From contig JAISTB010000033.1 of NCBI GenBank assembly GCA_031272775.1, forward strand, positions 1 to 53,182: DNA of 53,182 nt. The letters are read 5' to 3'. The notes beneath the pieces were generated by a model that saw nothing but the letters and a program-made list of their open reading frames with translations, was not told the DNA's origin and did not search any database. Of this stretch, positions 10,838 to 24,206 are shown piece after piece; within the stretch, counting starts at the first letter, position 1; each line of letters starts with the position of its first letter. A program made the translations under genes and the position numbers. This DNA comes from Fusobacteriaceae bacterium. Lineage in GTDB: Bacteria; Fusobacteriota; Fusobacteriia; Fusobacteriales; Fusobacteriaceae.

Positions 10838-12160
10838 TTATGCGATTTCTTCCCGTAATTCCGCGCCGGCGTCTTCTCCGGAGACGGACGGGGAACCCTT
10901 TTTGGAGGATTTGAGCTTGTGCTCGGCCATAATCGCCAGAACCGCGGACTCGATTTGCGCAAACAGCGCTTTGTCTTCTTCGAGCTTGGCTTTGACATTT
11001 TCCTTGCCCTGACCGAGACGCATATCCCCGAAGCTGAACCAGGCGCCGGCTTTGGCGATGACGTTATTCTCAAGAGCCAGCTCAAAGATTTCCCCGGTCC
11101 GGGTGATACCCCTGCCGTACATGATCTGGAAGGCGGCTTCCTTGAAGGGCGGCGCCACTTTGTTTTTCGTGACCTTGACGATGGTTTCGTTACCGATCAC
11201 GTCGTCGCCCTGCTTGACGGAACCGATCCGTTTGACTTCCATACGAACGGAAGAGTAGAATTTGAGCGCTTTCCCGCCGGTCGTGGTCGTCTGGGGCCCG
11301 AAGCCGAAGCCGCCGATTTTTTCCCGGATTTGGTTGATGAAGATCATGGTGGTTTTGGATTTGTTCAAGGTGCCCGTCAGTTTGCGCAGGGCCTTGGACA
11401 TGAGTCTCGCCTGAAGGCCCATCTGCTGGTCCGACATCTCGCCGTCGATCTCGACCTTGGGGACGAGGGCGGCAACGGAATCGACGACGATGACATCCAC
11501 GGCGCCGGAGCGCACGAGCATGTCGGCGATTTCCAGGGCCTGTTCCCCGTAATCGGGTTGGGAAATCAGAAGTTCGTCCACATCGACGCCCAGATTTTTG
11601 GCGTATTCAGGATCCAAGGCGTGCTCCGCGTCGATAAAGGCGCCGATTCCGCCGGCCTTTTGGGCCTCGGCGAGGATATGGAGGGCGATCGTGGTCTTGC
11701 CCGAGCTCTCCTGCCCGTAGACCTCGATGATTCGTCCCCGGGGAACGCCCCCTACGCCAAGGGCCATGTTCAAGTTCAGACTCCCGGTGGAAATGACTTC
11801 CACGGCCATGCTCTGACTTTCGCCCAGCTTCATGATGGAGCCGTCGCCGAAATCTTTTTTGATCTGCTTCATGGCAAGATCCAGCGCCTTGACTTTTTCA
11901 GGATTCAGGGGCTCCCGCGAAATTTCTTTTCCGCTCTCCTTGCCTTCTTTTTCTTTCAATTCTTTGATCTCTTTGATATTTTTGATCTCGCTCATGTTTT
12001 CCCTCCCTTCGATATGATCGCGTTTCATGGTCTCGCCGGTCTCTCCGGTCTTTTTGTTTTCTCCGCTTTCTCCGGCTTCCCCGGTTTCTTTGGCGTCTTT
12101 GATCAGTCTGATCTCTTTGTTTTCTTTGCTTTCTTTGTTGTCTCCCTTTGGTCTCGCCAT
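10838..12160 (-). CDS. recA: Recombinase RecA with charged N-terminal extension
   Basis: The core from about residue 86 is a full Rec[21 protein letters not shown], the Walker [20 protein letters not shown] and [12 protein letters not shown]. RecA coats single-stranded DNA, exchanges strands and triggers the SOS response. The first ~85 residues are low-complexity Lys/Glu/Gly/Thr sequence not found in ordinary RecA. Two starts have good ribosome sites: 12160 (GGGAGGGTGTGCC) and Met56 at 11995 (AAGGGAGGGAAAAC). Both produce an extended protein. The promoter at 12213-12240 serves both. No SOS box is obvious. Confidence 0.92.
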
Positions 12161-21011: not shown

Positions 21012-21040
21012 TTGCGAAAAAGACGCGGATTTGCTATAAT
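21012..21040 (+). promoter_or_regulatory. Promoter of the ROK gene
   Basis: TTGCGA (21012-21017), 17 bases, TATAAT (21035-21040). The start codon follows 19 bases later with AAGGTGAG as ribosome site. Confidence 0.75.
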
Positions 21041-21059
21041 TGGGAAAGAAGGTGAGCGC

Positions 21060-22286
21060 ATGGAATTTTATCAGAAAATGGACAAGCTGCGAATCGCGCA
21101 GACAAATAAATACAATGTTTTCCGCTGCCTGATCCGAAACGGGCCCATCAACCGGGCGGCCATAGCGAGAATGACCAATTTGAGCATCCCTACGGTCATG
21201 ACCATTACGGCGGAGCTGCTGGACAAGGGCGTCATCCGGTCCATCGGCAAGGGAGAATCGTCGGGCGGGAAGCCGCCGGAAATGCTTGAACTGGATCCCC
21301 GTTGCTTTTATTGCGTAGGGGTCGACGTCGGACGGACGACCATCCGTCTGATCGCGACGGACGCGGCCTCAGGGCAGGTGGCGGAGCTGCAGGAGTTGAC
21401 GGGGAACCCGTTGCCGGCCCGGGACTTTATCTCGCGAATCGGGGATCTCGTGCTGAATCTCATGGAAAAGGGGCGTATCGCCCCGGAAAAGATCGTCGGG
21501 ATCGGCGTCGCCATGCCGGGTCTGATCGAAAAAGAGAGCGGCAGGGTCATTTTTTCGCCGGATTTTGAATGGACGGAAATTCCGCTGAAGCACTGGCTCA
21601 AAGATAAACTCCCCTTTACGATTCTCGTCGAAAACGCCAACCGGGCCCTTGCCTTGAATGAAAGTTATTTCGCCGGAGACGGGGAACCGACCCATACGGC
21701 CTTTACGGTCAATCTCGGGCACGGAATCGGCGCTGGCCTTGTCCTGGGGGAGGAACTTTACATGGGCGCCGGCGGCACATCGGGCGAGATCGGACACATC
21801 ATTGTGGAGCAGGGGGGGCCTCTTTGCATGTGCGGAAACAGAGGCTGTCTCGAGGCCGTGGCTTCGGGCGACGCCATCGCGAAAAAAGGGCGGGCCGCCA
21901 TAGAAAAAGGCGAAGCGGAGGGGATTTACGCGCTCTGCGGCGGAAGAGGAGAAGAGATTGAGGCGAAAACAGTCTTTATGGCTTCGGAGCGGGGCGACCA
22001 GGCGGCCATGAAAATAATTGATGACGCCGCCGAATACATCGGGATCGGTCTCTCCATGGCAATCAACGTCCTTGACCCCGACAGACTGGTCCTCTGCGGC
22101 GGTCTCATGCGAAACGACGCCTCGTTTTTCGAGAAAATCAAGGCGAGCATAGAGAAACACAAAATGAAGCAAACCGGACGCCAATTGGTCATAACGCGTG
22201 GCATCAAAGGGGAAAACAGCACGGCCGCCGGCGTGTGCCGCCTGCTCCTCAATACGCTCTGGCGGGAGCGGAGTCTGCCGATCTAA
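21060..22286 (+). CDS. ROK family transcriptional repressor / sugar kinase-like protein
   Basis: A 408-residue protein of the NagC/XylR type. Residues about 15-75 form a winged helix-turn-helix (INRAAIARMTNLSIPTVMTI). The ROK domain follows, with VGVDVGRTTIRLIA (phosphate loop), GEIGHIIVEQGG and the zinc motif CMCGNRGCLEA. Such proteins sense a sugar or sugar phosphate and repress transport or catabolic genes. The ATG at 21060 sits after AAGGTGAG. No target gene is adjacent, apart from its own palindrome, so its sugar is unknown; the polyol operon further on is one possible target. Confidence 0.85.
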   Translation: MEFYQKMDKLRIAQTNKYNVFRCLIRNGPINRAAIARMTNLSIPTVMTITAELLDKGVIRSIGKGESSGGKPPEMLELDPRCFYCVGVDVGRTTIRLIATDAASGQVAELQELTGNPLPARDFISRIGDLVLNLMEKGRIAPEKIVGIGVAMPGLIEKESGRVIFSPDFEWTEIPLKHWLKDKLPFTILVENANRALALNESYFAGDGEPTHTAFTVNLGHGIGAGLVLGEELYMGAGGTSGEIGHIIVEQGGPLCMCGNRGCLEAVASGDAIAKKGRAAIEKGEAEGIYALCGGRGEEIEAKTVFMASERGDQAAMKIIDDAAEYIGIGLSMAINVLDPDRLVLCGGLMRNDASFFEKIKASIEKHKMKQTGRQLVITRGIKGENSTAAGVCRLLLNTLWRERSLPI

Positions 22287-22328: not shown

Positions 22329-23396
22329 CTACCCCTTCACCTCGTAGACCCAGCCGTAGGGATCGGGAATATCGCCGTATTGGATCCCCGTCAGATAATC
22401 ATAGAGCTTTTTCGTAAGAGCGCCGGTCTTGAAGTCGTTGACCGTAATCGTATCGCCCTTGTAGCGCAGCGATCCGATCGGCGAAATAATGGCGGCGGTC
22501 CCTGTTCCGAAGGCTTCTTCCAACGCCCCGGTCTTTCCCGCTTCCATGAGGGCGTCAATGGCAAGGGGTTCCTCCCGGACCGTAAGGCCCCAGTCCCGGA
22601 GAATCTTGAGGCAACTGTCCCGGGTTACGCCCGGAAGAATGTTGCCGTCCAGGGGGGCCGTCCAGATTTCTCCGCCGATCTTGAACATGACGTTCATGGT
22701 GCCCACTTCCTCCACGTATTTGCGCTCGACGCCGTCCAGCCAGAGCACTTGGGTAAAGCCTTCCTTTTCGGCCTTTTTCTGGGCAATCAGCGAAGCCGCG
22801 TAGTTGCCTCCGCATTTGGTAAAGCCCGTGCCGCCCCGCGCCGCCCGGGTATATTCTTCTTCCACGTAGATTTTGACAGGATTGATCCCTTCTTTATAAT
22901 AGGTTCCCACAGGGGTCAAAACGATCATAAATTTGTAGGCGCTCCCGATGTGAGGCGCGATGTCGGGATTGCAGGCAAACATAAAGGGCCGGACATAGAG
23001 AGACGTTCCCGGTAGTTTGGGGATCCAGTCCTTTTCGAAGGCTACGAGATCGTTGACGGCCTGGATAAACATATCCACGGGTAGTTCGGGCATACAGAGC
23101 CTGTCGCAGGAGCGGGCCATCCGTTTCCCGTTCATCTCGGGGCGGAACAGGAGCACCCGACCGTCTTTGGCCCTGTAGGCCTTCATTCCCTCAAATACTT
23201 CCTGAGCGTAATGCAAAACGAGGGCCACGGGATTCATGGGGACGGGCCCGAAAGGCACGATGGCGCCGTTGTGCCAGCCTTTTTCCGTCGTGTAGTCCAT
23301 GGTAAACATGTGATCCGTGTAGTACTTTCCGAAGCCCAGATCGTTCCAATCGGGTTTCTCCTTCAATTGCTGCGCTTTTGTAACGTTGATGTTCAT
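22329..23396 (-). CDS. ilvE: Branched-chain amino acid aminotransferase
   Basis: A 355-residue class IV PLP aminotransferase of the long BCAT form, which interconverts Leu, Ile and Val with their 2-keto acids. Visible motifs are YAQEVFEGMKAYRAKDGRVLLFRP near residue 65, RPFMFACNP, GGNYAASLIAQKKA (around the Schiff-base region), DGVERKYVEEVGTMNVMF and GTGTAAIISPIGSL. AGGAGG (23401-23406) lies just before the ATG. It is preceded on the minus strand by a 250-base leader with a Val/Leu-rich ORF and an intrinsic terminator. No other ilv or leu biosynthesis gene is nearby. Confidence 0.92.
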   Translation of the reverse strand: MNINVTKAQQLKEKPDWNDLGFGKYYTDHMFTMDYTTEKGWHNGAIVPFGPVPMNPVALVLHYAQEVFEGMKAYRAKDGRVLLFRPEMNGKRMARSCDRLCMPELPVDMFIQAVNDLVAFEKDWIPKLPGTSLYVRPFMFACNPDIAPHIGSAYKFMIVLTPVGTYYKEGINPVKIYVEEEYTRAARGGTGFTKCGGNYAASLIAQKKAEKEGFTQVLWLDGVERKYVEEVGTMNVMFKIGGEIWTAPLDGNILPGVTRDSCLKILRDWGLTVREEPLAIDALMEAGKTGALEEAFGTGTAAIISPIGSLRYKGDTITVNDFKTGALTKKLYDYLTGIQYGDIPDPYGWVYEVKG

Positions 23397-23406
23397 ACAA
23401 CCTCCT

Positions 23407-23437
23407 AAAAAAAAATTGACAACCGCTCAGGTTGTCA
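23407..23437 (-). terminator. Intrinsic terminator directly before ilvE (attenuator)
   Basis: On the minus strand TGACAACC-TGAGC-GGTTGTCA followed by a run of nine T that ends at the ilvE ribosome site. A terminator here can only serve to control read-through into ilvE. Its stem shares the CAACCTG core with the lctP leader terminator. A second hairpin, CCGCC/GGCGG (23466-23482), lies upstream of it in the RNA. Confidence 0.75.
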
Positions 23438-23543
23438 GATTTGTGTGAATCGCTTTTATCGTGAACCGCCGATACCAGGCGGCTTGTTGCCGTTTGATGC
23501 TTCTTTTGGGGAAAATGGTCTGAAACCTTTTCACAGGGGCGCG

Positions 23544-23612
23544 CTATAAAATTGTGATGGCTCCGAGGAGCACCACGACACTAGCGACAAATCCTGTGAA
23601 AATTCCGGACAT
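23544..23612 (-). CDS. Candidate 22-residue Val/Leu/Ile-rich leader peptide of ilvE
   Basis: ATG at 23612-23610 with AGTGAGG eight bases upstream, TAG at 23546-23544. Ten of 22 residues are Val, Leu or Ile, including the run VVVLL (codons GTC GTG GTG CTC CTC) and ITIL at the end. The downstream gene is a branched-chain aminotransferase, so the peptide matches the amino acids of the pathway, as in classical ilv and leu attenuators. The RNA from its promoter to ilvE holds this ORF, a GC hairpin and a terminator and nothing else. Confidence 0.6.
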   Translation of the reverse strand: MSGIFTGFVASVVVLLGAITIL

Positions 23613-23649
23613 AATTCAAGCCTCACTGAACGAAAAAATGATTTCAGTA

Positions 23650-23678
23650 ATCATAGCATATTTTTTTGTCTTTTGCAA
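23650..23678 (-). promoter_or_regulatory. Promoter of the ilvE leader
   Basis: On the minus strand TTGCAA (23673-23678), 17 bases, TATGAT (23650-23655). Expected RNA start near 23643, giving a leader of about 247 bases before ilvE. It is back to back with the DUF488 promoter. Confidence 0.7.
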
Positions 23679-23704: not shown

Positions 23705-23733
23705 TTGACAAAGATCTGTTTACGGGCTATAAT
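23705..23733 (+). promoter_or_regulatory. Consensus promoter of the DUF488 operon
   Basis: TTGACA (23705-23710), 17 bases, TATAAT (23728-23733): a perfect sigma-70-type promoter 30 bases before the first gene, which suggests strong constitutive transcription. Confidence 0.85.
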
Positions 23734-23762: not shown

Positions 23763-24206
23763 ATGAAAATATACACGATCGGATTCACGAAAAAAAGCGC
23801 CGAGAACTTTTTTTCAGTCCTTGAGGAACAGCACATAGAAGCGCTTGTAGATATTCGCTTGAACAATACGTCTCAACTGGCCGGCTTTTCCAGATACCCG
23901 GATTTGCCTTATTTTTTGGAAAAGATCATTCATGTCCGCTATATACAGGATCCTGATTTTGCCCCTTCGAAAGAGATGTTGCGACGATTCAGAGAGGGCG
24001 ACATCAATTGGGACGCATATACTTTGGCTTATCAAAAGCTGTTGGAAGAGCGGAACATAAAAGATCACATTCAAGAAAAATACAGAGATTTCCTTGACAA
24101 GAACATATGCCTGTTGTGCAGTGAGGACAAAGCAGATCACTGTCACCGGTCTTTGGCGGCGCAGGAAATCAAAAAACAACTAGGCGGTGAAATTATCAAT
24201 CTTTAA
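23763..24206 (+). CDS. DUF488 family protein (first copy)
   Basis: A 147-residue DUF488 protein. It opens with YTIGFTKKSAENFFSVL and then LVDIRLNNTSQ; near the end is CLLCSEDKADHCHRSLAA, the Cys-His segment of the family. The TIGxS and DxR motifs are typical. The biochemical role of DUF488 is not settled. The gene starts an AT-rich three-gene operon, with 18 bases to the next gene. Base composition differs from the surrounding housekeeping genes, suggesting transfer. Confidence 0.8.
   Translation: MKIYTIGFTKKSAENFFSVLEEQHIEALVDIRLNNTSQLAGFSRYPDLPYFLEKIIHVRYIQDPDFAPSKEMLRRFREGDINWDAYTLAYQKLLEERNIKDHIQEKYRDFLDKNICLLCSEDKADHCHRSLAAQEIKKQLGGEIINL

Follow-up and report, generated by a model that had tools for sequence, protein, structure and literature searches.

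A putative ribosome-mediated attenuator upstream of ilvE in a Fusobacteriaceae genome, and similar leader peptides at other branched-chain amino acid genes of Fusobacteriota

The ilvE locus and its leader

The window, that is the whole stretch of 53,182 nucleotides analysed here, belongs to a Fusobacteriaceae (Fusobacteriota) MAG (G000) of 2.09 Mb in 41 contigs that is 99% complete. On its minus strand lies ilvE, the gene for the last enzyme of valine, leucine and isoleucine synthesis. It encodes a branched-chain amino acid (BCAA) aminotransferase of type II, as identified by matches to NF009897 (479 bits, cut-off 307) and TIGR01123 (394 bits, cut-off 250). The gene is apparently monocistronic, since the next gene downstream is convergent (21012-22286, plus strand). 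Ahead of it are a minus-strand promoter, a 22-codon open reading frame with a ribosome site, and a terminator, and all of these, which the original prediction had described, are present in the sequence where it had placed them (Table 1). A perfect 12/12 sigma-70 promoter also occurs in the window at 23705-23733 on the plus strand, facing away from the ilvE leader and toward an ORF at 23763-24206.

The leader peptide contains the VVVLL and ITIL stretches that had been reported for it. Isoleucine, valine and leucine make up 10 of its 22 residues (3, 4 and 3, respectively), and the remainder are Gly, Ala, Ser, Thr and Phe together with the initial Met, so that the earlier description of its amino acids as exactly those of the enzyme is slightly strong. 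As was also claimed, the terminator T-run touches the ilvE ribosome site, and the length of the terminated RNA expected from the sequence, about 237 nt, agrees with the figure of about 240 bases given before. Terminator-like sites number 3 against 0.3 expected. The intermediate hairpin that lies within the loop of the antiterminator is retained in the sister genome as GCCGCC-CGGTAA-CGGCGG.

Table 1. Features of the ilvE leader in the window, and the leuA-leuC leader of the window's genome
Feature	Sequence or description	Position	Strand	Basis
Promoter	TTGCAA-N17-TATGAT, extended -10 (TG)	23650..23678	-	sequence; consensus scan 9/12
Leader ORF Shine-Dalgarno	GTGAGG	23621..23626	-	sequence; same position in sister genome
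Leader ORF	MSGIFTGFVASVVVLLGAITIL, 22 codons + TAG	23544..23612	-	ATG at 23612, TAG ending 23544
Region 1	GTCCGGAATTTTCACAGG, codons 1-7, inside ORF; partner of region 2	23593..23610	-	MFE, pair probabilities
Region 2	CCTGTGAAAAGGTTTCAGAC, 3' of ORF stop; partner of region 1 or 3	23518..23537	-	MFE, pair probabilities
Antiterminator 5' arm	AGGTTTCAGA	23519..23528	-	pairs with 23439-23429, probability up to 0.97 with region 1 masked
Intermediate hairpin, inside 2:3 loop	GCCGCC-TGGTATC-GGCGG	23466..23483	-	sequence
Antiterminator 3' arm / region 3	TCTGACAACCT	23429..23439	-	folding
Terminator hairpin (regions 3:4)	GACAACC-TGAGC-GGTTGTC; arms 23436-23430 and 23424-23418	23418..23436	-	sequence, terminator scan; conserved in genus
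Terminator T-run	9 T	23407..23415	-	sequence
ilvE Shine-Dalgarno	AGGAGG, adjoining T-run without gap	23401..23406	-	sequence
ilvE	branched-chain amino acid aminotransferase type II	22329..23396	-	ATG at 23396; NCBIfam match, ORF map
Leader before leuA-leuC	Leu-rich leader peptide + terminator	G000:C24 ~11556-11693 (L217 1057-1194)		

The elements of an attenuator, among them a promoter and a terminator before the ilvE ribosome site and a BCAA-rich ORF with a ribosome site of its own, are all found here in the right order and with textbook spacing, as judged from the sequence and a consensus scan. The reading favoured by the sequence and by modelling, with a probability of about 0.9, is that a classical ribosome-mediated transcription attenuator controls ilvE.

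Conservation and codon choice in ilvE leaders

This layout was looked for in the 420 bases preceding each ilvE relative of the family. All 19 copies of at least 61% identity, which span three genera (g1, the window's own, together with g8 and g13), have a promoter, a Shine-Dalgarno sequence and a BCAA-rich ORF of 22-54 codons, and in all of them a terminator comes right before the ilvE Shine-Dalgarno sequence; the peptides include MIETNIKIIVYVILLSWSYYNFI (G002), MFKLLSIIFVISIINLIFMNIRSF... (G029) and MFVILSIIFVIYILLICREKNY... (G075). The layout is absent from the more distant homologues of the family (G016, 58%; G015, G033, G026 and G008, below 40%), and a similar scan of 37 Clostridia/Bacilli ilvE loci found no comparable pair of ORF and terminator. 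Two ilvE genes, 72% identical, are present in the window's genome, each with its own leader; the second paralogue (G000:C37:53698-54759) has a different leader peptide, MFETSMRLIVYILLLSWSYYNLI, and an attenuator-like terminator. Lack of conservation of the ORF had been named in the original prediction as a result that would speak against attenuation; in the sister genome the orthologous leader ORF (G001, C35) is identical at 67 of its 69 nt, and the flanks are more divergent. The pN/pS values of the leader ORFs are mixed, from 0.2 to 1.8, which is expected given that synonymous sites are under both codon and RNA constraint, and the ratio was dropped as a proof of coding.

Rare synonyms are frequent, though not obligatory, among the regulatory codons of attenuators. 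Within the first 25 codons of the g8 leaders GTC provides 9 of 9 valines, as compared to 1.7% in reference genes, and in the g13 leaders GTC and GTG provide 15 of 19 valines (reference 10%), CTC 8 of 22 leucines (2.1%) and ATA 60 of 62 isoleucines (50%); ATA overall accounts for 103 of 112 isoleucines in the leaders of the AT-rich genera against a reference of about 50%, all these counts being non-independent since the leaders are related. Most g8 and g13 leaders have a TTT-GTC-ATA core. For the window's genus, where codon usage is more even, a rare-codon bias is not clear.

The codon counts bear directly upon whether it is the peptide itself that is the functional product. It could be supposed that the ORF encodes a small hydrophobic, perhaps membrane, peptide with its own terminator, and that ilvE is reached by weak read-through or from an unseen promoter. 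The window's peptide and the leaders of its relatives do resemble single transmembrane helices, and the g8 and g13 ORFs of 36-54 codons are long for leader peptides, but the hydrophobicity follows from the BCAA content, and a peptide selected for its amino acids alone would not need the rare synonyms that the g8 and g13 leaders favour at BCAA codons. The tying of alternative helices to ribosome position, the sharing of one RNA topology by differing peptides across genera and the recurrence of such ORFs upstream of BCAA genes, all described below, also argue against this explanation, which is accordingly improbable.

Competing RNA structures and modelled ribosome stalling

The attenuator reading depends upon the helices that the leader RNA can form. 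In the window the predicted fold has a z-score of -2.9, with none of 200 shuffles equally stable. In the minimum free energy structure and in the pair probabilities regions 1 and 2 form an extended hairpin with the ORF inside it, and region 2 has an alternative partner in region 3, which holds the 5' half of the terminator; the 1:2, 2:3 (antiterminator) and 3:4 (terminator) helices of the window copy are mutually exclusive. The separate hairpin noted in the original prediction is present, and is better seen as part of this set, with region 1 inside the ORF. A shorter 1:2 stem chosen by eye (TTTTCACAGG:CCTGTGAAAA) failed to account for the exclusion, and the full fold extends the stem through GGTTTCAGAC.

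Among the relatives, where some of the arms were picked by eye, the sequences are quite different and the arrangement is the same. For instance, the 1:2 arms are CTTAGCAT:ATGCTAAG in G029 and AACATAA:TTATGTT in G073, and the 2:3 arms are GATCGGTTTCAAA:TTTGACAACCAGATC in the second copy of the window's genome and AAACAAGAT:ATCTTGTTT in G035. The 5' arm of the 2:3 helix starts at nt 78-100 of the leader ORF in 17 of 18 leaders. Covariation within genera is weak, since the arms hardly vary there: RNAalifold on two single-genus alignments shows a single two-sided change in either. Between the two most closely related leaders, a 1:2 base pair is disrupted (A-C in G001a).

The effect of a stalled ribosome was modelled by masking a 32-nt footprint at successive codons and computing how region 3 pairs while region 4 is still untranscribed; the footprint is a simplification, and the nascent RNA is folded at equilibrium. 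With the ribosome masked at codon 9 or 12 of the window copy, 2:3 pairing rises from 0.00 to 0.76 whereas shuffles gain at most 0.07, and the antiterminator peaks when codons 11-13 occupy the A site and disappears once codon 14 is reached. The sister orthologue behaves likewise (0.00 to 0.82, shuffles at most 0.09). A gain of at least 0.2 is found in 14 of 18 ilvE leaders as against 1.8% of 450 shuffles, the mean gain over the 18 being 0.42 as against 0.00; in this simple model the stall-dependent gain is absent from the other four (G000b, G001b, G002 and G080).

Once the full-length RNA of the window copy is available, the terminator wins at equilibrium for every stall position, so that the switch must be kinetic, as it is in classical attenuators. 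The same dominance would suit a constitutive partial terminator that sets a basal level of ilvE and senses no amino acid, but such an element would have no need of a conserved, BCAA-rich, rare-codon ORF nor of a 2:3 helix that is absent from shuffles, and this explanation is even less probable than that of a functional peptide.

Least likely of all is that a metabolite riboswitch or T-box governs the terminator and that the ORF is incidental. Such elements typically sit in structured 5' leaders that carry a terminator ahead of an amino acid gene, but conservation here falls on codons and competing arms and not on an aptamer core, and neither the window leader nor related ilvE loci match any Rfam family at gathering score. 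For the window leader only a spurious miRNA model appears at E values up to 10 and there is no match to the T-box covariance model (RF00230); the ilv/leu loci likewise give no Rfam family at gathering score. Rfam ruled out a T-box or riboswitch for the window and for 18 fusobacterial, 20 Clostridia/Bacilli and 18+20 BCAA loci. A T-box or riboswitch in the leader was the second finding that the original prediction had named as contrary, and its proposal of a peptide attenuator for ilvE is thus supported on both counts.

When 61 Fusobacteriales genomes were searched for T-boxes, the window's genome had none anywhere, while matches in other genomes are below threshold yet significant (55-82 bits, gathering score 93). 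Where genes downstream of these matches were typed (L179-L186), they encode asparaginyl-tRNA synthetase (asnS), aspartate-tRNA(Asn) ligase and asparagine synthase (asnB), which suggests that the T-boxes of Fusobacteriota are of the Asn type, as far as the matches with typed downstream genes go. A T-box survey of 2008 found none in Fusobacteria (PMC2494555).

How, then, would the attenuator work at ilvE? Transcription would start near 23644 and a ribosome would begin the 22-codon leader peptide. With charged Val-tRNA available (the other BCAA-tRNAs being less clearly involved) the ribosome would pass codon 14, after which region 1 would re-pair with region 2 in the hairpin that encloses the ORF, leaving region 3 free for region 4, and with the 3:4 helix formed RNA polymerase would terminate at the T-run just upstream of the ilvE ribosome site. 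When charged tRNA is scarce the ribosome would instead stall at around Val9-Val13 and cover region 1, the 2:3 antiterminator would pair, the terminator would come too late and ilvE would be transcribed. For this scheme we infer leader translation, stalling, termination in vivo and the amino acid sensed, which for the window copy is predicted from the stall model to be mainly valine since Val9 and Val12-13 are the responsive sense codons nearest to the effect.

Other branched-chain amino acid genes and known attenuators

Leaders of this kind also occur at other BCAA genes. In the window's genome leuA-leuC (leuA NF002991, 694 bits; leuC TIGR02083, 691 bits) is preceded by a Leu-rich leader, MFTNHLLLNLLILALLLLSVAM..., with a terminator AGCAGCC/GGCTGCT. 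Similar leaders stand before ilvD-, ilvC- or ilvE-led operons and before leuA in other Fusobacteriales, including members of family f4 (G022, G017, G015, G021, G039, G040, G010 and G013), among them one before leuA that has a run of 12 Leu codons, MFLTDILSINLLLLLLLLLLLLSCKQLNRF (L169 / G013:C149 80-172). One of these genomes has an ilvD-like gene with a single in-frame TAA (G021:C11:5129-6712), which is a pseudogene or a sequencing error, and a second ilvD on contig C5. The LIV ABC transporter has a leader, MFTLSIISLVIYVILLIHIV..., upstream in 15 g8/g13 genomes, with a terminator found by scan in 13 of the 15, and the ilvE-type core AGCATAATATTTGTCATA and similar BCAA leaders lie upstream of a livJ/livK-type gene (L175, L176, L177 and L187-L202 except L191). 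In Fusobacterium-type genomes a single leader core, [S/N]II-x-VI with the rare GTC and then ATA, precedes both ilvE and liv genes.

Within the broader set 11 of 16 leaders respond in a looser stall test as against 14% of shuffles, and the structural evidence for each locus is weaker than for ilvE, resting mainly on ORF and terminator. It is nonetheless fairly probable that Fusobacteriota employ peptide attenuators phylum-wide (at ilvE, ilv operons and leuA, and at the LIV importer in Fusobacterium-type genomes) in place of T-boxes, even where ilvC and ilvB are not detected.

The mechanism itself is a known one. Leader peptides rich in BCAA codons, competing hairpins and a terminator before BCAA genes are likewise found at enterobacterial ilvGMEDA (ilvL), ilvBN and leuABCD (leuL) (PMC5794164), from which the present case differs in showing no Rfam similarity, in its monocistronic ilvE target, in its phylum and in a 1:2 hairpin that encloses nearly the whole ORF. 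The original prediction contrasted such systems with Firmicutes, said to use T-boxes instead. T-boxes do control the terminator of Bacillus ilv-leu leaders according to tRNA charging, by direct tRNA binding, and none is present in the window leader, but the generalisation is too simple and the host is in any case a member of the Fusobacteriota and not a Firmicute. In Staphylococcus aureus a leucine-rich peptide attenuator replaces the T-box at ilvD, differing from the window leader in being Leu-dependent and in serving a Firmicute ilv-leu operon (PMC5794164), and Rli60, the ilv-leu leader of Listeria monocytogenes, is a ribosome-mediated attenuator with a short BCAA peptide, tested by mutation, that differs in its Firmicute host, its operon, its 13-aa peptide and its working together with CodY (PMC5864092). 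A BCAA leader peptide (uORF) is also described for the ilvBNC operon of Corynebacterium, a member of the Actinobacteria (PMC10272879, PMC11857589).

Most cases of peptide attenuation documented so far come from Proteobacteria, Actinobacteria and some Firmicutes. In a 2010 survey the only case outside Proteobacteria and Actinobacteria was the survey's own Firmicute example (PMC2965389). Within the open-licence literature no earlier report of attenuation in Fusobacteriota was found. Judged against that literature, what appears new is the phylum, the set of genes and the target, an ilvE in a genome where neither ilvC nor ilvB was detected.

How do the amino acid-fermenting Fusobacteriota of gut and mouth sense BCAA supply? 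A phylum-wide set of attenuators, if true, would provide the answer, with a single type of RNA switch spanning both synthesis and import of BCAAs, and would yield a catalogue of leader peptides not yet annotated. In the window's genome, which has ilvD and leuA-leuC, neither ilvC nor ilvB was found above curated cut-offs, although in a MAG absence is never certain. Control of ilvE by starvation, as predicted here, would in such a genome point to an anabolic role for IlvE, and suggests that the enzyme aminates 2-keto acids that arrive by another route, for which reductive carboxylation of branched-chain acids, or uptake, are candidate sources.
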